From a gamma proteobacterium endosymbiont of Lamellibrachia anaximandri (GTDB lineage: Bacteria; Pseudomonadota; Gammaproteobacteria; Chromatiales; Chromatiaceae): a DNA stretch of 64,000 nucleotides. This document shows positions 5,020-51,101 of the stretch, in pieces (within the stretch, counting starts at the first letter, position 1; every line of letters starts with the position of its first letter). The DNA lies in NCBI GenBank assembly GCA_016756855.1, contig JAESPD010000013.1, forward strand, positions 1-64,000. The letters are read 5' to 3'. The notes beneath the pieces are model-generated. The model did no database searches. It saw nothing but the letters and a program-made list of their open reading frames with translations, and had not been told where the DNA came from. Position numbers and translations under genes: made by a program.

Positions 5020-6585
5020 ATGTTGCTGCAGCCGATCAAATACACTCTGCCTGACGACCTGGGACTGGACGGCGTCGAGTCTGCGCTGGCCCAATCCCAC
5101 CGTTTCCTGAAAGCCCCCAAAAGTGATGATAGCCTGGTTTTTCTCGACAGTTTCGACTGGCGGGTTTGGCAGGCGGGTGCGGAACTGACCTACGCAAAGT
5201 CTTCGGTGGGTGGCCGTCTCTGCTGGATTGAACATCGCAGCGGGCAGCAAGTGGCTTGTGAGGCGCAGCAGCATGCTCCTGGATTCAGCGATTCCCTGCC
5301 GGTCGGCGAGATGCGTGAGCAACTCTCCCCGATACTCGAAATGCGTACACTGTTACCCCTGGTCAGGGTGGATCGTCATCTGCGAACTCTGCGACTGCTC
5401 GACAGGGAGGAGAAGACGGTTGTTCGGATTGTGCTGGAAGAGAACCGCTACAGCTCCCAGGATGGCAAACAGCAGGGTTCGCTGGAACCGACTCTCACCC
5501 TGCTGCCGCTTAAAGGCTACCCAAAACCATTCCTGCGGCTGCAGGCGGATCTGGAAAGTCTGGGGTTAGAGGTGGCAACCCAGACGCCGTTCATCGGCGC
5601 CCTCGATGGAATTGGCCGGCGGCCCGGGGACTACTCATCCAAGCTCAACTATCGGCTCGATCCTGAACAGCGCGCCGATGCTGCTGGTCGAAAGATACTG
5701 CTGGGCCTGTTGGATACCATGGAAGCGAACATTTCCGGTACCCGGACGAATCTTGATTCGGAATTTCTCCATGATCTACGGGTCGCGGTGCGCCGCAGCC
5801 GGTCGTTGCTGGGGCAGGTCAAGAACATCTTCGCTGAAACCGATATCGAACGTTTCAAACAGGGTCTGGGGTGGATCGGCAAGATCACCGGGCCGACCCG
5901 CGACCTGGATGTCTATCTGCTGAAATTCGCTGATCTTCAGGCGAGTCTGCCGACGGTGGTGCAAGCCGATCTCGAACCCTTTCGCGACTTCCTGGTAAAT
6001 CATCATCAGGGCGCGCAGCGTGCTCTGGTGCGCAAGATCAACTCTCCCCATTTCCGCAAATTGATGAAGGATTGGCGTAGCTGGCTGGAGTCGCCATTGC
6101 CGGAGGCGCCGGTTGAAGTCAATGCCCGGAAGCCGGCTGCGAAGGTGGCGGATCTGCGCATTCGCAAGATCTACCATCGGGTGTTGAGAGAGGGGTTGGC
6201 GATTACACCGGACTCCCCGGCGGAAGCGCTTCACGATCTGCGCAAATCGTGCAAGAAACTGCGCTATCTCATGGAGTTCTTTCAGAGTCTCTATCCCAAG
6301 CGCGATATTCGCAAGGTGATCAAGGCGATGAAGATCCTGCTGGATAATCTCGGCGACTTTCAGGATCTGCAGGTGCAGGCGGAGAGTCTGGAGGATTTTG
6401 GTGAGCAGATGCTGAAAGAGGGGAGCGGCGCCCGGCCGGTGATTGCGATGGGCATCCTGGTGGGTGATCTGCTGGCGAAGCAACAGCAGGCCCGGGCTGA
6501 GTTCTCGGCCCTGTTTACCGACTTTGCCGCACGGGACAATCGCGACACATTCGTGCAACTCTTTGGTGGCAAGGGGACAGTATGA
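5020..6585 (+). CDS. CHAD domain-containing protein
   Basis: Conserved His-rich alpha-helical CHAD signatures: DFLHDLRVAVRRSRS-type (EFLHDLRVAVRRSRSLL), GPTRDLDVYL, LHDLRKSCKKLRYLMEFF. Confidence 0.9.
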   Translation: MLLQPIKYTLPDDLGLDGVESALAQSHRFLKAPKSDDSLVFLDSFDWRVWQAGAELTYAKSSVGGRLCWIEHRSGQQVACEAQQHAPGFSDSLPVGEMREQLSPILEMRTLLPLVRVDRHLRTLRLLDREEKTVVRIVLEENRYSSQDGKQQGSLEPTLTLLPLKGYPKPFLRLQADLESLGLEVATQTPFIGALDGIGRRPGDYSSKLNYRLDPEQRADAAGRKILLGLLDTMEANISGTRTNLDSEFLHDLRVAVRRSRSLLGQVKNIFAETDIERFKQGLGWIGKITGPTRDLDVYLLKFADLQASLPTVVQADLEPFRDFLVNHHQGAQRALVRKINSPHFRKLMKDWRSWLESPLPEAPVEVNARKPAAKVADLRIRKIYHRVLREGLAITPDSPAEALHDLRKSCKKLRYLMEFFQSLYPKRDIRKVIKAMKILLDNLGDFQDLQVQAESLEDFGEQMLKEGSGARPVIAMGILVGDLLAKQQQARAEFSALFTDFAARDNRDTFVQLFGGKGTV

Positions 6586-7337
6586 AGATCATCGGCATTT
6601 ACAACATCAAGGGTGGGGTGGGCAAGACTGCCACGGCGGTGAACCTTGCCTACCTGGCGGCGAAGGAGGGTTACCGCACCCTGATCTGGGATCTTGATCC
6701 CCAGGCTGCAGCGACCTTCTATTTTCGTGTCAAACCGAAGGTAAAAGGCGGTAGTAAACGTCTGGTGAAAGGCAAGCTCGATCTCGACTCGCTGGTCAAG
6801 GCCACCGACTTTGACAACCTTGACATTCTGCCGGCGGATTTCTCCTATCGGAATATGGATCTGAGACTGGAGACCGCCAGCAAGCCTACCAAACAGCTGC
6901 TGAGACTGCTGCGTCCCCTCTCCCGTGCCTATGATTATGTTTTTCTCGACTGTCCGCCCAGTATATCTCTGGTCTCGGAAAACATCTTTCGTGCCGCTGA
7001 TGGCCTGATGTTGCCCCTGATTCCGACTATCCTCTCCCTGCGAACCTTTGACCAATTGCTCGATTTTCTTGATGGACATCGTATAGACGGGCTGGAGCTG
7101 ATGCCCTTCTTCTCCATGGTGGACCGGCGCAAGCGGATGCATCTCGATGTCATGAAGAACCTGCCTGTCACGCACAGCGAGGTGCTGGAGACCCGTATCC
7201 CCTATGCCAGTGATGTGGAGCGGATGGGTATATTCCGCATGCCGGTGGCAGAGTATGCCCTGCGAGGAGTGGCGGCACAGGCCTACGAGGCGTTGTGGGC
7301 GGAGACGAAACAGCGACTTGGTGGAATTCCGGATTAA
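6582..7337 (+). CDS. ParA/MinD-family ATPase
   Basis: MKIIGIYNIKGGVGKTATAVNLAYLAAKEG deviant Walker A; FLDCPPSISLVSEN. Overlaps CHAD stop by ATGA. Confidence 0.92.
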   Translation: MKIIGIYNIKGGVGKTATAVNLAYLAAKEGYRTLIWDLDPQAAATFYFRVKPKVKGGSKRLVKGKLDLDSLVKATDFDNLDILPADFSYRNMDLRLETASKPTKQLLRLLRPLSRAYDYVFLDCPPSISLVSENIFRAADGLMLPLIPTILSLRTFDQLLDFLDGHRIDGLELMPFFSMVDRRKRMHLDVMKNLPVTHSEVLETRIPYASDVERMGIFRMPVAEYALRGVAAQAYEALWAETKQRLGGIPD

Positions 7338-33408: not shown

Positions 33409-34392
33409 ATGAGTAAAGAAATAAATATATTCGTCTCCTATAGTCATCGCGATGATGACTGGCATGAGCGACTGATCGCCTTTCTGGACTCTCTCAAGTT
33501 TACCCGTCTGAAAGCGCAGGATCTGAAGAGCGGGAACCTGTATCAGAATGCCAGATTTCATTATCGCGCCTGGTCGGATAAACAGATCGATCTCGGCAGC
33601 AACTGGAAGCCGGAGATAGAGGATGCCATCCGGCAGGCGAGGGTGGCTGTGTTGTTGGTTTCGACCGACTTTTTAGCCTCTGAGTTTATCCTCGAACAGG
33701 AGCTGCCACTGCTGATCGACCGTTCCAACAGCGGCGAACTTGCCATCTTTCCACTCATCATCCGTCCCTGCCTGTGGCGTGAAACCGCCTGGCTGCAGGA
33801 GATTCAGATATTTGACGCGGGGCAGGCAATGTCGGAGCTGCCAAATCATGAATGGGAGAAAAAACTTGTTGAATTTTCCCTGCGTATCGATGAACAGCTG
33901 GAGAGCGAACGGAGCGGTCAGGAGCTGGTGGATGAAGAGCCTGAAAGTATCGAGGAAATTTTCACTCCCCCCACTGTCGATCAACCCGTCTACGATGTGC
34001 CGCTGCAGGAGAAGAATGCGTCCGGCAATGAATTTCATACCTGGAACGGTGTACGCAAACTGATAGACGAGTCTGGATTCTGCGAGACTGGAGAATACGT
34101 CGTCGATGGAGTGCTGCTGTTCCGCACCATTAAACAGCGTACTTGGCTTGCTGTTACGGAGCGGCAGCTGTTTTGTGTGCTGGATGGTGAAAAGACGCGC
34201 AAGCGAGGAAGGCTTATACAGTGGCACGAATCCTTGAGTCAAAATCTACCAGTGCGTGCCCGTGACCGTGCCAACGCGCAAACCGGCCTGCTCAATGTTG
34301 GTACCCATGTGAACTGGCTCTATTCCAAACGGCTGCATAAAAGTCCGGGAGAGCTTGAGGCGCAGGTCACCAAACTGCTTGAGAATGCGTGA
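33409..34392 (+). CDS. TIR-domain protein with uncharacterised C-terminal domain
   Basis: INIFVSYSHRDDDWHERLIAFLDSL...AWSDKQIDLGSNWKPEIEDAIRQARVAVLLVSTDFLASEFILEQELPLLI is a TIR fold signature. Confidence 0.88.
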   Translation: MSKEINIFVSYSHRDDDWHERLIAFLDSLKFTRLKAQDLKSGNLYQNARFHYRAWSDKQIDLGSNWKPEIEDAIRQARVAVLLVSTDFLASEFILEQELPLLIDRSNSGELAIFPLIIRPCLWRETAWLQEIQIFDAGQAMSELPNHEWEKKLVEFSLRIDEQLESERSGQELVDEEPESIEEIFTPPTVDQPVYDVPLQEKNASGNEFHTWNGVRKLIDESGFCETGEYVVDGVLLFRTIKQRTWLAVTERQLFCVLDGEKTRKRGRLIQWHESLSQNLPVRARDRANAQTGLLNVGTHVNWLYSKRLHKSPGELEAQVTKLLENA

Positions 34393-34535: not shown

Positions 34536-36413
34536 ATGAACAGGGATATTAGCGTCCATCGGTTACGCAGACGCCACTTAACTCAGAACATAGACAGGAA
34601 GGAATCACCTTTTTTCGCCCATGCCGGCAAGGTATCGGAGAAAAGGTCTCAGCAGAGCGCTTTCTTTCAGGCAAAGCTGACCATTGGACAGCCCGGCGAT
34701 CAGTATGAGAAGGAAGCCGATAGCGTCGCCACCGCAGTTGTCCAGCGTTCTGCAGACTCCCCATCAACGCAACAGCAGGGCTTCTTCACCATTCAACGAC
34801 GGGCCGGTCACCGGGCAGCTATGCCTTCCGCACCAGTCGGCATGGCGGCCAGATTGCAATCCTCCAAGGGAAACGGCAGTAGACTGCCAAAGCGAACCCA
34901 CGCGGAGATGTCGCAGTCGCTGGGTTTCGATTTCAGTGATGTGCGGCTACACACAGACAGTGAATCCGTCAATTTGAACAGGGCTGTCGGTGCCCAGGCG
35001 TTTACCCACGGGAAAGACATCTATTTCAACTCGGGAAAGTACAATCCCGAGACGAAAAGCGGAAAACACCTGCTGGCCCATGAGTTGACCCATGTGGTGC
35101 AACAGAATCGTGGCGCCGGAGGCCTGCAACGATCTTCAATGGTCCAACGGGAGATCGAGCTAGATGCGGCAAACGTGCCTACCGGTAACTATCTGTTTCG
35201 GGTCGGCAGCGGTATCACCTCCGGATTTTTCAGACGTATAAAACGTTTTGTCGGGGATGGCGCCCTGACGGATAACGAACTCAATGCACTGCGTATCTAC
35301 GCGTTGCAGGTCAGGGGTTCGGTAAACCACGCTGAACGGCTCTTGATGGCGGCGATGCTCAATCCGGTCAATGTCCCATTGCTTCAGGCACACAGGGCGG
35401 GTGACCTCTCCATTCCGATCAACACGATTACCGATGCCAACCGTCAGCATGTTCGCGATATCGGGCGTGAACAGATACCGGATGCGCTCATGCTGCAGTT
35501 GTGGGATGCCGTTACCACATTGGGATTTGATCTTGAACGAGGCTTGGCGTTATTGGCAGAGGTCGATGCAGCGGCAACCAGAGAGATCATGCAGCACGCC
35601 GGTCCACAGTTCCAAACACAGGCGACTGCACTGATTGCCTACATGCAGATGCACACCATTCCCGCCCTGGAGGTATTGGGCGCGATGTTGAATGCGGCCT
35701 CCGACAGCAGTTCCGGCGACAAGGTGATGGCCGGGATCGTCTATGTCATCGCCAGAAAGGCAGGCCACGCCACTGCAGGGCAGATCAGAAGCGGTCAAAT
35801 AAAGGTTGATGCGCTGATTCCCCGTGCCTTCCGGAATTTGACAGCAGGTAACGGTGCCGGTGCGTTCTACTCACCGATAGGCAGGAGAGACCAGGAAAAA
35901 GGGGACACGCTATATCTACCGACTAGTCTGAACGTTGCGGCGATTGATTCGCGGGCACTGGTCATCCATGAATTGACTCACGCTGCCGATGACGCCGCGA
36001 GCGCAGGTATCACGCAACGCCGCGTGCTTGAACTTGAGGCGCGGGCCTATACCAGCCAGATGCGATATATCATGGACGAGATCCTGGCGCTCCCGGTTGC
36101 CGAGCAACCTGCGGCCATTCGCGGTTACAGAAGATCAGCCACCAGCGCACTGCTGCAATGGGCGATGGTCTTGGCGGCAAAAGGTAATACTGCGCACTAT
36201 CGTGACATCTGCACCCGAATTATCGTGCAGGATCCCTCCGTATCAGAAGCGAATGTCGTGGCCGCGCTGGCGATGAGCGAGGCGAATATCACCACCAATC
36301 TTGAAAATGCCATTGATGCGCATCCAAACTACACGCGAGGTACTCGAACCGCGCTCGACGGTCTCTCCGGCGAGAGCGTGCTGGGTCTGGTCGGCGCAGC
36401 GGCTGGGCCTTGA
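34536..36413 (+). CDS. DUF4157 domain protein with a second, C-terminal HExxH motif
   Basis: LGFDFSDVRLHTDSESVNLNRAVGAQAFTHGKDIYFNSGKYNPETKSGKHLLAHELTHVVQQ (DUF4157); C-terminal ALVIHELTHAADDAASAG. Confidence 0.85.
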   Translation: MNRDISVHRLRRRHLTQNIDRKESPFFAHAGKVSEKRSQQSAFFQAKLTIGQPGDQYEKEADSVATAVVQRSADSPSTQQQGFFTIQRRAGHRAAMPSAPVGMAARLQSSKGNGSRLPKRTHAEMSQSLGFDFSDVRLHTDSESVNLNRAVGAQAFTHGKDIYFNSGKYNPETKSGKHLLAHELTHVVQQNRGAGGLQRSSMVQREIELDAANVPTGNYLFRVGSGITSGFFRRIKRFVGDGALTDNELNALRIYALQVRGSVNHAERLLMAAMLNPVNVPLLQAHRAGDLSIPINTITDANRQHVRDIGREQIPDALMLQLWDAVTTLGFDLERGLALLAEVDAAATREIMQHAGPQFQTQATALIAYMQMHTIPALEVLGAMLNAASDSSSGDKVMAGIVYVIARKAGHATAGQIRSGQIKVDALIPRAFRNLTAGNGAGAFYSPIGRRDQEKGDTLYLPTSLNVAAIDSRALVIHELTHAADDAASAGITQRRVLELEARAYTSQMRYIMDEILALPVAEQPAAIRGYRRSATSALLQWAMVLAAKGNTAHYRDICTRIIVQDPSVSEANVVAALAMSEANITTNLENAIDAHPNYTRGTRTALDGLSGESVLGLVGAAAGP

Positions 36414-36622: not shown

Positions 36623-39600
36623 ATGCCGTCGCCGAACCCCGCTGATCGCAAGATCTATCACGTGTTCCTCGCCTCACCCGGCGACATGGCCGACGAGCGC
36701 CAGGCGGTGCGTGATTTTTTTAAGGCCTACAATCGGGATGCCGCTAATCCCAGGGGGTTTCAGTTCGATCTTATCGACGGGGAAAATCAGACCAACATCG
36801 GTGTTGGTCGCCCCCAGGCGCTGATTACCCAACAGACCCTAAAAAAATTCAGATTATCCCTTGCCCTGGTTATTGGCCTGCTGGGCCAGCGTTTCGGCAC
36901 ACCGACCGGCGATTTCAATTCGGGCACAGAGGAGGAGTTCACTGTCGTTATGAATATGCGTCGTGAACAAGGTGACTACCCCGAGATCAAATGGTTTTTC
37001 CGTAAAGGTTGGGGAAAAGACGGCCTACCGATGGATCCGGATGAACTACTTGAAGTCGCCAATCAAAAGCGCTTGGTCGATGCCTTCAAGGAGCGTGTGA
37101 AAGCAGAAAGTGATGTTCAACTCTTCACAGCCAATTTCGAAACCACCAACGACTTCCCCGCGCTGCTGGCGCGTGATCTCAATCAATGGCTCAACGATCC
37201 GGAAAAGCCCTGGAATCAGCAGGATGCCGGCCCCGGTGATCCCTATGACCCGCCGCCGGATGACCAACTGCTGGATGAGTGGCTGCGCATTCAGGCCGCC
37301 GACTGCGCCCGCCTGCCGCTGGAGGTGCTGGATGCCCGTCAGGGTCTGGATCAGCCAGCCGACCCTATTCGTCTGCCGGATATCTTCGTGCCCCTGAAGG
37401 CCGTTGCACCGCCGGAAAAGTGGCTGGAAGAGGACGAAGAGGTTCCAAACCACATTCGCGAAATGACCGAAGGCAAAAGTGGTAAGCCTGTGCCGGTTCT
37501 AGATCTGTTGGCCCGTGAGCCTCACTCGGTGTTGATCGGCGACCCAGGCGCAGGCAAGTCGGCCCTGGTCAATCAACTCGCCTGGCAGTTGTCGGCGAAT
37601 GATGCGGATGCCGAACTGCCCGATGTACTTCAGGGCGGGATTCCCGTGCGTATCGTTCTGCGACAGGTTGAGATCCCCGGCAACGCCAAGGTGGGCAGGG
37701 CCAAATGGCTGTGGCAGGCGCTGGAGACGGATATCCGTGACCTGCTGGAAGGGAGCGCCCAAGGCCGGGGCGAAAAAGCCCCGCAAGTAGTGAGCGCCCT
37801 GCGTCATCGGCTGGGCGAGAATCCTGGGGGAATGATCCTGCTCGACGGTCTCGACGAGGTGCCTGCCGCTGGTGAACGCCGCACCCATCTGCTGCAGGCG
37901 ATTCGTGCGCTGGTGGAGGAGCTGCCGGCCTCGACCGGTATCATGTTGACCGCCCGACCCTACGCATATACCGATCCCGGCTGGCGCCTGGCCGGTTTCA
38001 CCCCGCTCTTCCTCACCCCATTTGATGAAGGACAGCGAAGCCAGTTCATCCACGGCTGGTACCGGGCGGCGAAAACGCGCTTCGGCCTGCGAGAACAGGA
38101 TCTGAAGCTTCGCGTACCCGATATGCTGGAACGGGTGGAAAACCGTGAACACCTGCGGGAGCTGGCTCGCCGTCCCCTGCTGCTGACCCTCATTGCCACC
38201 CTGCACGCCAGCGGCGGCAGCCTGCCGGAGGATCGTGCTGAACTCTACCGCGACAGCGTCAACCTGCTGCTCTACCAGTGGCGGGCCAATCGCTGCTTTC
38301 GTAACAGCGATGGTCAGCCCCTGAGCCTGTCGGAACCCCTATTGCGTGAAAGCCTGCAGCAACTCGCCTGGTCGGCGCACAAGACCCAGCGTGAACAGCG
38401 CGACAGTAACGGTGTCGCCAATATCAGCCGCAACCAGTTGCTGGACGCCTTCGAACCCCTGCTGGCGACGTTAGGCCGGGACGACCTGCTGGCCTACCTG
38501 GAGCAGCACAGCGGCATCCTCATCAGCCGTGGCCGGGATCACTACGCCTTTCCTCATCGATCATTTCAGGAGTACCTGGCCATGGGCTGGCTCAGTTCCC
38601 GCACCGATGACGCCCTGAGCCGCGAGGTCTGCACCGACCCGATCTGGTGGCGGGAGACCTTCCTGCTGGCGGTCCTGGAGCAGCGCAAGAAGCCCCGCCC
38701 CGCCATCGGCTACATCGAGGATATGCTGGAGACCGCTGAAGCGGCGACGGCAACCGTTCGCCACCAAGTCTCGGTATTGGCCGGTCTGAGCCTGATGGAA
38801 CTGGGGCTGACCGGGATGGACGACACCGGATTTTCCCGTCAGCGTATTAAGATTCGCAGCTGTATTGTCGAACTCATCGAAGATCCCACCGCTTTGACAA
38901 TCGAGGAGCGGGCCGAGGCGGGGAGGGTGCTGGGTGGCATCGGAGATCCACGCCCCGGGGTCGGGCTGGATGAAAATGGGTTACCTGATATTGAGTGGTG
39001 TGAGATTCCCGCTGCCGATGAAGTCAGCCTGGAAGACGATGCAGGTACTTTCCCTGTCGAACACTTTTACCTGGCCAGTTATCCGGTTACCAACGCTCAG
39101 TTCCAGACCTTTATCGATGATGACAAGGGATATCAAAACCGCGAATGGTGGGTGAAACTGGATGAGAAGCCAGATACACCTGAAATGCCCAGTTGGAGCG
39201 AACCCAATCATCCTCGGGAGACAGTCTCCTGGTACGAGGCGATGGCCTTCTGCGCCTGGCTCTCCGGCCGACTGGGATACACGGTGAGTCTGCCGACTGA
39301 GTGGCAGTGGCAGCAGGCGGCGAGCAGCGGCAATGCGAGACAGGACTACCCCTGGGGTGAAGAATACGAAACCGGCCGGGCCAATATTAATGAGACTGTT
39401 GGAGGTGCGGACTCTCACTATCTGCGCCGAACCACGGCTGTGGGACTCTATCCGCAAGGTAATTCTGCGCAAGAGGTCTCGGATCTTGCGGGAAACGTCT
39501 TGGAGTGGTGTCTGAACGAGTATGGCACTCCAGCCAACACCCAGGCCAGTGGCACAGCAAGATGCGTGTTGCGCGGCGGGTCCTGGGTCGACTGTCAAGA

Positions 39601-39700
39601 CTACGCCCGTGCGTCGCTCCGCAACTACCACGCGCCGGACAGCCGTGACCTCAGTCTGGGTTTTCGGTTGAGTTGTTCGTCCCCCATCGTGAAAGACTGA
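36623..39700 (+). CDS. DGR target protein 1: DUF4062-like N-terminus, NACHT/STAND-type NTPase, C-terminal FGE-sulfatase/C-type-lectin fold containing VR1
   Basis: IYHVFLASPGDMADERQAVRDFF; Walker A GDPGAGKSALVNQLAW; Walker B GMILLDGLDEVP; FGE-like FYLASYPVTNAQFQTFI...VSWYEAMAFCAWLSGRLGYTVSLPTEWQWQQAAS...VLRGGSW...LGFRLSCSS. Confidence 0.92.
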   Translation: MPSPNPADRKIYHVFLASPGDMADERQAVRDFFKAYNRDAANPRGFQFDLIDGENQTNIGVGRPQALITQQTLKKFRLSLALVIGLLGQRFGTPTGDFNSGTEEEFTVVMNMRREQGDYPEIKWFFRKGWGKDGLPMDPDELLEVANQKRLVDAFKERVKAESDVQLFTANFETTNDFPALLARDLNQWLNDPEKPWNQQDAGPGDPYDPPPDDQLLDEWLRIQAADCARLPLEVLDARQGLDQPADPIRLPDIFVPLKAVAPPEKWLEEDEEVPNHIREMTEGKSGKPVPVLDLLAREPHSVLIGDPGAGKSALVNQLAWQLSANDADAELPDVLQGGIPVRIVLRQVEIPGNAKVGRAKWLWQALETDIRDLLEGSAQGRGEKAPQVVSALRHRLGENPGGMILLDGLDEVPAAGERRTHLLQAIRALVEELPASTGIMLTARPYAYTDPGWRLAGFTPLFLTPFDEGQRSQFIHGWYRAAKTRFGLREQDLKLRVPDMLERVENREHLRELARRPLLLTLIATLHASGGSLPEDRAELYRDSVNLLLYQWRANRCFRNSDGQPLSLSEPLLRESLQQLAWSAHKTQREQRDSNGVANISRNQLLDAFEPLLATLGRDDLLAYLEQHSGILISRGRDHYAFPHRSFQEYLAMGWLSSRTDDALSREVCTDPIWWRETFLLAVLEQRKKPRPAIGYIEDMLETAEAATATVRHQVSVLAGLSLMELGLTGMDDTGFSRQRIKIRSCIVELIEDPTALTIEERAEAGRVLGGIGDPRPGVGLDENGLPDIEWCEIPAADEVSLEDDAGTFPVEHFYLASYPVTNAQFQTFIDDDKGYQNREWWVKLDEKPDTPEMPSWSEPNHPRETVSWYEAMAFCAWLSGRLGYTVSLPTEWQWQQAASSGNARQDYPWGEEYETGRANINETVGGADSHYLRRTTAVGLYPQGNSAQEVSDLAGNVLEWCLNEYGTPANTQASGTARCVLRGGSWVDCQDYARASLRNYHAPDSRDLSLGFRLSCSSPIVKD
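39564..39683 (+). other. DGR variable repeat VR1
   Basis: 120-bp match to TR; hand alignment gives 15 substitutions, all at TR adenines; invariant flanks GCGTGTTGCGCGGCGGGTCCTGG and CTGGGTTTTCGGTTGAGTTGTTCGTCCC. Confidence 0.95.
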
Positions 39701-39746
39701 CCGCTGTGGCGCTGAACACTGAACCTCTGATTTTCTGTTCACTGAT

Positions 39747-39764
39747 CCGCCGCGATAGCGACGG
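39747..39764 (+). other. hairpin downstream of VR1 (GATA loop, 7-bp stem with one C-A mismatch)
   Basis: CCGCCGC-GATA-GCGACGG, 63 bp after the VR1 end. Confidence 0.65.
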
Positions 39765-39787
39765 AGGCACCGCACCTACATTTTCAT

Positions 39788-40852
39788 TTACCGTCCCCTT
39801 GCGGCAAGGCGGTTGAATACGCTACGGCGCAATCCCCAGCTATCAGCGTAACGCACATGGTTGACCCAGCCCTGGATGCCGGCATCCAGCTCGGCGAAGC
39901 TGATTTTTCCCTGCCGCCAAGCCTGCATCCGTTCACCCAAATGCCGTGTTGCATTTCGCACTTTGCGCGACTTGATACGTCGGTGAGTCGGATAGACCAC
40001 GAAACCGAGCCAGGGAATTCCGCACTCAACCGGCAAAACCTGGGCGGCAGATTCATGGATGACCAGCCGGAACCGTTGCAGGCGTTCGATGATTGCCCGT
40101 TTCCAGGCCCAGAGTTCGGCCTTGTTGTTGCTGAAGAGGGCGAAATCGTCGACGTAGCGCAGGTAGGCTTGGCAGCCGAGTTCACGTTTCACGAAATGGT
40201 CAAAAGGGTCGAGGTAGCAGTTGGACCAGAACTGTGATGTCAGATTACCGATGGGCAGGCCACGTGGTCGGCAGGTAGCGAGCAGGTCGTCTTGCGGAAA
40301 CCACTGCATCTCATATTCGTCATCCAACACACCGGCACCACTGTCGATGATGGTACGAACCAGTACCATAACATCATCCTCTTCAATTTGACGATGCAGA
40401 ATCTCCTTGAGAACTGTGTGATCAATGGACGGGAAATGTTTGACGATATCTGCCCGCAGAATGTAGCGGAAGCGCTGTGAGAATCCCTGCAGACGGTCCA
40501 CCGCCCGGTGAGTTCCCTTTTCAACCCGGTTGGCGTAACTATCAGGAATGAAGTGTCTTTCGAACCTGGGTTCCAATAGATTACAAAGTGCGTGATGCAC
40601 TACCCTGTCACGAAAAGGGGCGGCGCTGATTTTGCGCCGCTTGGGTTCGTGAATATGGAAGTTCACATAAGACCCAGGCCGGTAACTTCCAGCAAGCAAT
40701 GATTCACGAAGTTTTAGTAATTCATCTGCCTGTCTGAAATCAAACTGCGCCACGTTGGGATGGCCGCGTTTGCCCCTGGATGCTTTCCGGTAGGCCAGAA
40801 GCAGATTTTCCCAATCACAAATTTGAGTGAACAGAGTACTGTAGGAGGGCAT
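39788..40852 (-). CDS. DGR-type reverse transcriptase
   Basis: [25 protein letters not shown]-terminus, [18 protein letters not shown] (DGR-type motif 4), [11 protein letters not shown] catalytic YVDD. Start placed at 40852; the 73-aa N-terminal extension in the ORF track is antisense to avd. Confidence 0.96.
40842..40849 (+). promoter_or_regulatory. Shine-Dalgarno of the Avd-like gene
   Basis: TAGGAGGG, 8 nt upstream of ATG at 40858; lies inside the first codons of the RT on the other strand. Confidence 0.8.
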
Positions 40853-40857
40853 TCTGA

Positions 40858-41211
40858 ATGTCGCGGGAGATGGTGATATTTGTACGTGTGTTTGATTTGC
40901 TCGACTGGCTGATGCCAAAGTCAGAGCATTTCCCAAGGGTCTATCGCCACACGGTAACACAACGTCTGATGGATTCTGGGTTGGATCTTTACGAGGCTTT
41001 GGGGGATGCGCAGGCGCAACGGGGGATTGAACGATTGGCAGCGTCGCAATCCGCTGATGCCTCGCTGTCAAGACTTCGCAATTATCTGAAACTCATTCAT
41101 AAATGGCAATGGCTGAGCCACGGGCAATATCAGCATGTGAGTGAGATGGTGGCGGAGATCGGCCGTCTATTAGGTGGCTGGTTGCGGCAGGCCCGAACGG
41201 ATCAGGGATAG
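40858..41211 (+). CDS. avd: Avd-like DGR accessory protein (four-helix bundle)
   Basis: 117 aa, helical, basic: [82 protein letters not shown]; size, position next to RT and pattern match Avd. Confidence 0.9.
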
Positions 41212-41214
41212 GGC

Positions 41215-41255
41215 GGGGCGCTTCGGGAACAGTGTCCGGGAAGCGCCCCTTTTTT
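41215..41255 (+). terminator. rho-independent terminator after avd
   Basis: GGGGCGCTTC (41215-41224) / GAAGCGCCCC (41240-41249) then TTTTTT. Confidence 0.9.
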
Positions 41256-41382
41256 ATATATGCCCGACGGTATTGTTACCGTGCGGACGGGACCAGCCCG
41301 CGCCATCAATCCGTTCTCCGCCTCGGCCTGCAAATCGTGATCGGCAGGCAGTACCGGCAATGTGGAAGAACAGGGGCGATGT

Positions 41383-41671: not shown

Positions 41672-44600
41672 TCAGTCCTTCATGATGGGGGACGAACAAC
41701 TCAACCGAAAACCCAGATCGTAGTCACGGTGATCCGGTCCGGAGTGGTTGCGGAACGACGCACGGGCGAAGTCAAGACCGCCGACCCAGGACCCGCCGCG
41801 CAACACGCGATTTGCTGTGCCACTGGCCTGGGTATTGGCTGGAGTATCGATCTCGTTCAGACACCACTCCCAGACGTTTCCTGCAAGATCCGACACCCCT
41901 TGCACTGAGTTACCTTGAAGATAGATACCCACGGCCGTGGTTCGGCGCAGATAGTGAGAACCTGCACCTCCAGAAGTCTCATCAATATTGGCCCTCCCAC
42001 TTTTGTACTTCTTTCCCCACGGATAGTCCTGCCCAGGATTGCCGCTGGTGGCGGCCTGCTGCCACTGCCACTCTGTCGGCAGGCTAACAGGATAACCCAG
42101 CCGGTGGGAGAGCCAGGCACAGAAAGCCATTGCCTCGTACCAGCTGACTCTTTCACGGGGATGGTTGTCTTCCTTCCACTGTGAGGACAAAGGTTTGTCC
42201 GGTTCCACCTCCAGGTCTGCCCACCACTCAGGGTTCTTATACCCCTTGTCATCATCGATAAAGGCCTGGAACTGGGCGTTGGTGACGGGGTAGCGGGAGA
42301 GGTGGAAGGCCTCTCCCGGGAAACTGCCCGCATTGCCGGACAGGGTAACTCCACCCGCCGGAATATCCTGCCAGGCGATATCGGGCAGGCCGTTTTCATC
42401 CAGCCCCACGCCGGGGCGATCATCGAGGCCGGTTGCTCCCAAGGCGCGAAACAGTGCTTCACGATGTTCCGGGCTCTCTACCACCTCCAGTGCGGTATAA
42501 CATGCCTGGCGATAGAGCATGCCCCATTCGCCGATTTCTCCCCGTGCCTGGGCAATCTCCAAACAGTCGCCCAACAGAATAGCGGGGCGCGGGTTTTGGC
42601 GCAGTGAATCCCGGTCAAGAAAATCCCCCAGTAGCGAGAAACGCTCCAGGGCGGTATCCAGATCCTCCCGGCTGGTGAGCCGGGCGAAGAGAAACAGCAG
42701 GGTCTGTCGCCACTGGGATGTCCCTGCATGGGAAGCGACCAGCTCCTCCACCGATTGCCCTGAACGGACAAAACGTTCTGCAGCGAGGAAATCCTGGAAG
42801 CTGAGGTGATAGAACTCCGCCTGGTTGTTCTCTGTCGGCAGTAAAAGACCGGAGCGCGAGAGCAGGTCTTCCCGCTTGTCCGCCGCTTCATCCTCACCGC
42901 CCTCATCGTGGGGTTTGGAACGGGCATAGTCTATCAAAACCTGCTCTATCTCCTCTTCGTGGATCTCGGCGTCGGGTACGCTGCGTTGTTTACCCGCCAG
43001 ATCGCCGCTGTGCATCTCCCAGGCGATGACGCCCAGTCGCCTCCGCACCTTCGCTACCTCATGCGCCCGGTCAAGATAGCGGTTGTGCAGTACCTGGTTT
43101 ATCACCGCGCTGTAGAGATCATGGATGTCTTTGGGAAGTCTGCTCCCTTCGTCATACTTCACGCAGAGGGCGGTCAGCAGCATTGGGTTGGTACGAAACT
43201 CATTTAGGTCGGGGCGGCCATCGAGTTGTTGCAGAAGTCCGTCGGCCTTTATTGTCCCTTTCTCTCTGTCCGCTGCATGGAACCAGCGTTGCACGAAGAG
43301 TCGTTGCAGATCGCCAGTGAGTGCGGAGAGTTCGCTCTCTGCAAGGCCCAGCCCCTGACGTTCACCCGGACTCAGACCGTAGGGGCGGCTGGTGAGCAGG
43401 ATGCGGTTGCCGGTTTCGATCCAGTGAGGCAGCGCCTTCTTCAGGCCGGAGAGCAGGGCCGCGCGGGGGTATTCGATGTGGCCATCTTTCTCACGGCTTG
43501 GCGGGACTTCATCGAAGCCGTCGATGATCAGCAGGCAGTTACCCTGTTTCAGGTGCTCCAGAAAGAGAGCAGAAGTCAGGCCATCCGGTTTTTTCTTGTC
43601 GAGCCAGTCGCAGAGGGCTGTCTCAAGTTGGGCGCGGGTCCAGTCGCCGTTGTCTGCCTGACAGGTCATGTGTCCCCAGAATTCGCGTAATCGACAGAGG
43701 ATGGGCAGACGGCCCAGCAGATCTTGTGGTAACTCTTCCCGGTATTCAGTGGCCAGTTCGTGGTCGTCGGCGGGGATGGTACTGCTGGCCACGACCCAAC
43801 AGACCCAGTTGCAGAAGGTGGTTTTTCCCCTGCCCGGCGCTCCCGGCAGGTAGAGGGAGTCCTGGTTCAGTCGCGTCAGTAACAGATCGTGGCCCTCTCG
43901 ATCTACTTCCCAGGGTGCTTTTTTCTCTTCCCCTTCCGCTGCGGGCGTTGGGGTGATTGCCGGGACGTAGACTTGCGGCAGGCGGACGTTATGGGCCTCT
44001 TTGTTGTCGAGACCGAGCAGAGTGATATCGCTGGCTTTGTGCCTGAGCCAATTCAGGTAGCTGGTGGGGATGGATGCCGGTTGTTCGGGGTCGGGATTGT
44101 CTGGTTGCGGCGTGCCGTTGCTCAGCCGATTGACCAGTTCAGTGAGATCCTGCTCCACCCGTAGTTTGAAATTGTCGCTGATTTTGAGTTGGTGGTAATT
44201 GCCGATGAAGGTGTTGCCGTCTTTTGTGTTCTTTTCGATGAAGGCATCGACAAGTTCCAGTTGCTCGAAAGCCTCTCTTTTTTCTTTCGTTGTCATACCC
44301 GGTTTCAGGGAAAAATCCTGATTGCGCCGATAGATCAGGGTCTGTGGCGGTGTTTCTGCAGCAAGTGCGCCGTAGAACTCATATTCGGTGCCGGTTGGTT
44401 GGCGGCCTTCGTCATCCAGGGGATCGAAACTCTCGTCCAACGGCGTACCCAGACGATGGCAGAGTATGAAGATGCAGATGTCGTACTCCGCCATCTTCGG
44501 CAGGCTGGTTTCGATGTCGGTCTGTGGGGAGTTGGTGGTCAGTTTCGGGTAGTGGGTGTTGTCCCAGCCGTAACCCTTTACCGTAATGTTGCGGGGTCGC

Positions 44601-50809: not shown

Positions 50810-51014
50810 GTTCTTGCACTCCCGAAGACTGGTTCTGCTCCCGGCGGCTCACCGAACCGCCACAGGAAATTTAAGGTTATCTGAGTGTGTCAGTCCAGTC
50901 CATATCTGCTTGCTTGATCAGACCCACCATCTACCCCATTGTTGCCGCGCGACAGGCAAGGCCGCTACGCTGTTTTCATTTGGGATATTCAAGGATGTCC
51001 TGATTGTTTAAGGC

Positions 51015-51088
51015 GTAGGCATGATCAAGCGTAGCGGATCGGGCATTTTATGGGGGTTGCCGGTTCCGCTGTGCTTGAACCGTCCTAT
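51015..51088. repeat. REP-like inverted pair family A
   Basis: GTAGGCATGATCAAGCGTAGCGGATCGGGC ... GGTTCCGCTGTGCTTGAACCGTCCTAT. Confidence 0.75.
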
Positions 51089-51101
51089 ATTGTTAAATCG
51101 G

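Follow-up and report, generated by a model that had tools for sequence, protein, structure and literature searches.

In the diversity-generating retroelement (DGR) of phage BPP-1, the spacer has been reported to fold, to recruit the reverse transcriptase (RT) together with Avd, and to supply the priming adenine (PMC12875486). In DGRs of multicellular bacteria, a known target type is the NACHT-FGE protein, and such diversified proteins have been proposed to act as antigen sensors (PMC10907252). Here we analysed a 64,000-nt stretch of the gammaproteobacterial contig JAESPD010000013.1 (the window, meaning the whole stretch) and identified a genuine, intact chromosomal DGR, comprising an RT gene, an avd gene, a template repeat (TR), a structured RNA (R1), and two variable repeats (VR1 and VR2) located in two target genes (VP1 and VP2). 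The locus as a whole is very probably best explained as an intact DGR in which mutagenised TR cDNA would be delivered to VR1 and VR2 in the tails of two sensors, with R1 acting as the spacer.

Adenine-specific divergence of the variable repeats

The TR occupies 41383-41502 on the minus strand, spanning 120 nt with 29 adenines, whereas VR1 (39564-39683, plus strand) and VR2 (41689-41808, minus strand) lie at the 3′ ends of VP1 and VP2, respectively. VR1 departs from TR at 15 positions, all of them template adenines (hypergeometric p = 1.6e-11). VR2 departs at 19, of which 18 are template adenines (hypergeometric p = 5.4e-13) and the remaining one is a C-to-T change. Between the two VRs, 18 sites differ, comprising 17 template adenines and one other position (p = 4.4e-12). 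A first-pass annotation of this DNA had placed a 120-bp TR and both matching VRs at exactly these coordinates and strands, with the same mismatch counts; the computed alignment that it proposed as a check returned a single non-A difference, in VR2, and none in VR1.

At non-A positions, VR1 is identical to TR at 91/91 sites and VR2 at 90/91. Because the VP1 and VP2 genes just upstream of the VRs share only 79% identity over 525 nt, this agreement does not reflect simple paralogy. Ordinary gene conversion between inverted paralogues, rather than retrohoming, might also homogenise the VRs, given that the 3′ ends of VP1 and VP2 form long inverted repeats (575 nt, 83%) that could recombine. However, such conversion would neither confine the differences to template adenines nor stop at the TR-matching stretch, where the diverged upstream sequence begins, and TR retains every adenine in two species (those of the window and of congener G003). 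The adenine specificity of the divergence refutes gene conversion as the main process, leaving it a next to negligible probability.

Across all 205 contigs of the genome (4.26 Mb), a search recovered TR, VR1 and VR2 and found no fourth copy of the repeat. Read in the target frame, TR specifies a 40-residue peptide with adenines in 17 codons; substitution of these adenines cannot create a stop codon, and about 1.5e16 peptides are reachable.

An intact cassette with divergent RT and avd genes

The RT gene (39788-40852, minus strand, ATG at 40852) encodes an intact 354-aa protein carrying the Pfam RVT_1 domain. Its IGNLTSQ and YVDD motifs, which the first-pass annotation had recognised as DGR-type, were both confirmed; they are invariant in the clade alignment and fit the (I/V/L)GxxxSQ rule for DGR RTs (PMC3521204) together with an intact YxDD. 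Among PDB entries, the RT of 8ub7 comes closest (E=4e-49); the other chain of that entry is named Avd. The accessory gene (40858-41211, plus strand) encodes a 117-aa bAvd protein (Pfam PF22296, E=4e-16) that also matches PDB 4dwl (E=1.6e-4), the entry for Bbp7, which is the Avd protein of BPP-1.

With an intact RT, bAvd, TR, two VRs and two C-type-lectin-tailed targets all present, the description of the locus as a complete DGR holds, to which our analysis adds the bAvd gene, the paired NACHT-FGE targets, the head-to-head layout, the hairpins after the VRs and the RNA 3′ of TR. The genome contains one DGR of this type, with a single locus matching the RT at E≤1e-40 and a single hit for R1. An origin from a phage or plasmid was rejected, as the top phage RTs are ~36% identical or less.

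VP2 (minus strand) and VP1 (plus strand) converge on the cassette, placing VR1 and VR2 on opposite strands. Meanwhile, RT (minus) and avd (plus) are divergent, with their ATG codons on opposite strands and separated by 6 nt. Since these start codons nearly touch, the promoter or ribosome-binding signals of each gene probably lie inside the other. A promoter scan detected 2 sites against 1.3 expected, not a clear excess.

The head-to-head layout recurs across phyla

RTs sharing 60-84% identity with the window RT form a well-supported clade (100/99). Alignment of clade RTs yielded a set of 80 loci; a single-protein scan of genome contigs gave no relative. The avd gene is opposite to RT in 37/80 named genome loci, in taxa including Accumulibacter, Nitrosomonas marina Nm71, Ideonella, Rhodocyclaceae, Acidobacteria, Chloroflexi and others. 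Of 37 measurable loci, a count that includes the window locus, 12 have the two start codons 1 nt apart (overlapping CATG) and most have them within 20 nt.

At least one VR faces the other way from RT in 15/29 loci with opposite-strand avd versus 1/26 loci with same-strand avd (Fisher p = 8e-5, a value that overstates independence because the loci are phylogenetically related). The combination of divergent avd/RT and convergent targets recurs in proteobacteria, Acidobacteria and Chloroflexi. A TreeKit label test of whether the head-to-head layout arose only once covered 13 clade rows, 8 of them without known context. A search of literature text, with supplements outside its scope, found no published description of an antisense avd, and the head-to-head layout seems new to the literature.

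Among viral contigs, the top RT match (61% identity) lies on IMGVR_UViG_3300029624_000205 (locus L202), taken as viral as catalogued, where avd and RT are head-to-head, VRs occupy both strands and R1 is present.

A covarying RNA adjoins the template repeat

R1 (41255-41386, minus strand) is a 131-nt structured RNA that begins at the 3′ end of TR and scores 126 bits with its covariance model. The structure comprises three covarying helices and a weaker upper part of P1. When 14 loci were aligned with MAFFT, standard pairings filled 88% of the cells of the 29 proposed pairs, compared with 30-47% when partners are slid, and double changes appear in 17/29 pairs; some of this pairing excess is expected, because the structure was partly derived from those same sequences. 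The covariance model matched 69/96 loci, whole-window sources included, and on the model-fitted alignment double changes extend to 25/29 pairs. Folded thermodynamically by itself, the R1 sequence was unremarkable (z = -1.05), so the case for the structure rests on covariation.

Outside the seed, 36 loci have a TR that was called independently; R1 lies on the TR strand in every one of them and no more than 10 nt from the TR 3′ end in 26. R1 accompanies avd in either orientation. Among 217 family genomes, R1 was present in 12, and the four hits in new neighbourhoods all adjoin DGR target genes or remnants of RT. R1 was not found in 24 loci with more distant RTs, and Rfam returned nothing in 38500-43000, not even at E≤1. 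R1 seems to be undescribed and shared across several phyla.

By analogy with BPP-1, R1 most likely represents the spacer of this DGR lineage, where it would recruit RT-Avd and provide the priming site. Its placement could also suit a cis-regulatory RNA (an attenuator or leader) of the TR/RT transcript, considering that in head-to-head loci R1 shares the strand of RT and sits upstream of it, and that a terminator-like hairpin adjoins R1. Same-strand-avd loci, however, keep R1 at the TR 3′ end with TR downstream of RT (L177, L187), and R1 stays there when TR is on the other strand (L182). Because R1 starts at the TR 3′ end whatever the position or strand of RT, it tracks TR rather than RT, and a regulatory role appears quite improbable. 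For the biochemistry of DGRs, R1 offers a template-RNA model that is supported by covariation, does not come from phage BPP-1 and points to particular stems for mutation.

At another locus, L237 (genome G212, 6055-6898), R1 overlaps the end of the target gene, as if recombination between TR and VR had deleted the interval.

Two NACHT proteins with variable lectin tails

Each target joins a STAND-type NTPase (NACHT) to a C-terminal C-type lectin, with the VR at the 3′ end of the gene. VP1 (36623-39700, plus strand, 1025 aa) contains Pfam NACHT at 302-482 and FGE-sulfatase/C-type-lectin at 809-1016, and its tail matches the Treponema denticola DGR protein 2y3c. VP2 (41672-44713, minus strand, 1013 aa from ATG) likewise contains NACHT and a C-terminal FGE-sulfatase/C-type-lectin domain. 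The N-terminus of VP1 is DUF4062-like, a domain that falls under the Pfam cut-off in VP1 and is called in several homologues; that of VP2 has no Pfam match and only eight homologues among 5.8 billion proteins. Both N-terminal domains were modelled as Rossmann-like alpha/beta folds with moderate confidence (predicted local distance difference test, pLDDT, 81 and 78).

Because each VR sits in the FGE tail of a NACHT protein, the cell would be rewriting the ligand-binding tails of two sensors, which may recognise phage or other ligands. The DGR could work as proposed while its targets read ligands of host, kin or competitors in tubeworm or sediment rather than serving against phages. Relatives include tubeworm symbionts, a TIR gene and an eCIS-core gene lie upstream of VP1, and the variable tails give no hint naming a ligand. 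Nevertheless, anti-phage systems made of NACHT/STAND proteins with a C-terminal sensor are well established, and a role as antigen sensors has been proposed for NACHT-FGE proteins diversified by DGRs (PMC10907252); a non-phage function is possible, though doubtful. If the sensors are immune receptors, the locus would constitute a compact bacterial system with continually altered receptor ligand sites.

Two VP2 orthologues (P0242 and P0243, 79% and 73% identical to the window N-terminus) share an identical C-terminal tail peptide that misfits the window TR, apparently a swapped and frozen lectin tail.

Template transfer and decay among congeners

The bacterium appears to be closely related to deep-sea tubeworm symbionts, its genus probably being that of the vestimentiferan symbionts, a reading to which the host label of P0001 (below) also points. 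Relative to the window TR, congener G003 carries two private T-to-C changes in its TR, both of which also occur in its VR2. Compared with the TR of the same genome, this VR2 shows 21 differences, all at A, while the 584 nt of the gene that adjoin it are 84% identical to the window. At the sequence level, transfer runs in one direction, from TR to VR with TR unchanged, and G003 is on this evidence a case of natural co-conversion of template markers from TR to VR2. These copied TR mutations are evidence of template transfer in a natural setting.

Strain comparison revealed VR variation as well. P0001, the VP1 of a metagenome-assembled genome (MAG) labelled as an endosymbiont of a "Lamellib..." host, differs from VP1 at 4/973 residues outside the VR and at 6/35 residues in the readable VR, none of them unreachable by A-to-N changes. 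P0002 is 89.5% identical outside the VR, and all 11 of its VR differences from the TR peptide are A-reachable.

Across the five congeners compared, the DGR locus is flanked by the same neighbours and is intact only in the window genome. G003 keeps a truncated VP2, VR2, TR and R1 and is without RT, avd and VP1; what remains in G005 is a truncated VP1, VR1 and an RT tail of 35 residues; VP2 persists in broken form in G001 and G002 (the G002 copy at a contig end); and G004 has lost the whole locus. Since RT and avd were deleted at the same locus in congeners, loss of activity is common in the lineage, and the genus provides a decay series in which a single locus is still whole.

This decay raises the alternative of a recently silenced relic, in which the VRs were diversified in the past and the DGR no longer works in the species. 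In its favour, the locus is lost or broken in 5/5 congeners examined, the closest strain has a copy with a frameshift upstream of VR1, and the post-VR1 hairpin contains a mismatch. Against this, RT, Avd, TR and R1 are all intact in the window, as are the two VRs and their targets, the VRs remain identical to TR at all but one of their non-A sites, and VR1 differs between strains that are 0.4% apart in the rest of VP1, which makes a relic unlikely. The first-pass annotation had suggested recent or ongoing activity; of this, it is the "recent" part that is supported, given the different VR1 of the near-identical strain P0001, the homogenised non-A sites of TR and VRs amid diverging flanking genes, and the intact RT and Avd.

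A further convergent pair of FGE-tailed targets, with a 150-350 bp gap and without RT or avd, was observed in G005 (L114, 8106-9606) and G001 (L115, 7980-9617), and looks like another collapsed convergent DGR.

Proposed mechanism

In the reading that we favour, that of an intact retrohoming DGR, TR and the downstream R1 would be transcribed from the minus strand, and RT-Avd would bind the TR-R1 RNA, with R1 supplying the recruitment and priming site. RT and Avd would then reverse-transcribe the TR RNA with misincorporation at adenines, an enzymology modelled on BPP-1, and the mutated cDNA would replace VR1 and VR2. Up to 17 codons may thereby be rewritten in the C-type-lectin (FGE) tails of two NLR-like sensors.

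Several observations weigh against this scheme. The R1 model gives no match at the BPP-1 spacer with filters off, so the role of R1 is assigned by position only. P0001 is frameshifted by an apparent 2-nt insertion just upstream of VR1, which may be real or a MAG error. The loss of RT and avd in congeners indicates weak dependence on the DGR. For the N-terminal domains of VP1 and VP2, Foldseek returned only generic Rossmann/flavodoxin-like matches (template modelling score, TM, ~0.4).

Cassette signals and replication direction

Downstream of VR1, the inverted repeat CCGCCGC-GATA-GCGACGG (39747-39764, plus strand) has one mismatch and a GRNA-type loop. Downstream of VR2, CCGCCGC-GATA-GCGGCGG (41608-41625, minus strand) forms a perfect 7-bp stem with a GRNA loop and is the only perfect hairpin of its kind in the window (128 kb of strand). 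Phage DGRs carry a GRNA-loop hairpin after the VR at a spacing of 4-34 nt (PMC3240598); the hairpin type here conforms, whereas its spacing of ~63 nt exceeds that range. As a clade-wide feature, the hairpin was rejected for lack of enrichment (4/58 VRs versus 5/38 TRs). An intrinsic-terminator-like hairpin (41215-41255, plus strand), with a 10-bp GC-rich stem and T6, directly follows avd and precedes TR; it is strong in the window, but as a general clade feature it was likewise rejected, being found in only 2/37 loci by the search used.

DGR editing in Escherichia coli favours targets co-directional with replication by 7-44 fold (PMC12875486). Convergent targets always present one VR in each orientation, and because GC skew is positive throughout the window, VR1 is expected to diversify faster (it is co-directional if the plus strand is leading). 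The layout would provide a natural test of the replication-direction rule, as the two VRs share template, RT and chromosomal position on opposite strands. A broader view, unlikely enough that we offer it only tentatively, is a cross-phylum DGR lineage with its own structured template RNA, in which a head-to-head branch, with avd and RT coupled by antisense start regions that overlap, feeds two convergent NLR-like sensors; given the editing preference for co-directional targets, one fast and one slow sensor would then arise from the same template.

Neighbouring genes and repeats

Upstream of VP1 and co-directional with it lie a TIR-domain gene (33409-34392, plus strand; ThsB-like in PADLOC) and an eCIS-core-domain gene of DUF4157 type (34536-36413, plus strand), both syntenic in congeners, with the eCIS gene doubled in G003. 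On the other side of the DGR, 45515-48811 (minus strand) encodes a 1098-aa protein with WD40-like PD40 and DUF11 repeats, also present in G001 and G004. A short intergenic dispersed repeat (~51004-51090 and 44851-44888), with dozens of copies genome-wide and present in all congeners, is possibly a MITE- or REP-like element.

Comparison with known systems

Clade 5D DGRs, represented by DGR 3 and DGR 6 of Thiohalocapsa PB-PSB1 (PMC10907252), likewise combine a DGR RT with paired STAND/NACHT-FGE targets. That host is gammaproteobacterial, as here, and related RTs occur in Accumulibacter and Nitrosomonas; a probable fit to clade 5D is suggested by the nearest named RTs (Accumulibacter, Nitrosomonas, Chloroflexi). 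Clade 5D commonly, though not universally, involves several DGR loci per genome and a multicellular host (PMC10907252), whereas one DGR is present here. The main text of that study describes neither target orientation nor an antisense accessory gene, both of which are features of the window locus.

BPP-1, arranged as avd-TR-spacer-brt, has homologous RT and Avd proteins, the same A-specific TR-to-VR divergence and a GRNA-loop hairpin after its VR. Its 144-nt spacer between TR and brt corresponds in place to the 131-nt R1. However, all BPP-1 genes lie on one strand with avd before TR, whereas in the window avd sits antisense in the interval from TR to RT, and each strand carries one target.

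DGR parts on both strands have precedent in the "inverted" DGRs of DiGReF (PMC3521204). In Pseudogulbenkiania sp. NH8B, there are VRs that share the strand of RT/TR and VRs that are opposite to it (PMC3521204), and in DiGReF group-4 elements RT is opposite to TR/VR. DiGReF reports no accessory-gene orientation, conserved head-to-head clade or RNA element (PMC3521204). Yan et al. (2019; PMC6642488) distinguished 122 order and orientation patterns of TR, VR and RT, among which the present order may be included; as described, their classification is without avd position, start-codon overlap or RNA structure.

The targets share with the anti-phage STAND proteins bNACHT/Avs (PMC10907252) the plan of N-terminal domain, NACHT and C-terminal sensor. 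They differ in that the sensor is a DGR-mutated FGE/C-type-lectin tail and that their N-terminal domains match no known effectors. Collectively, these comparisons identify the window DGR as a member of the NACHT-FGE DGR group and a variant of it in layout and RNA.

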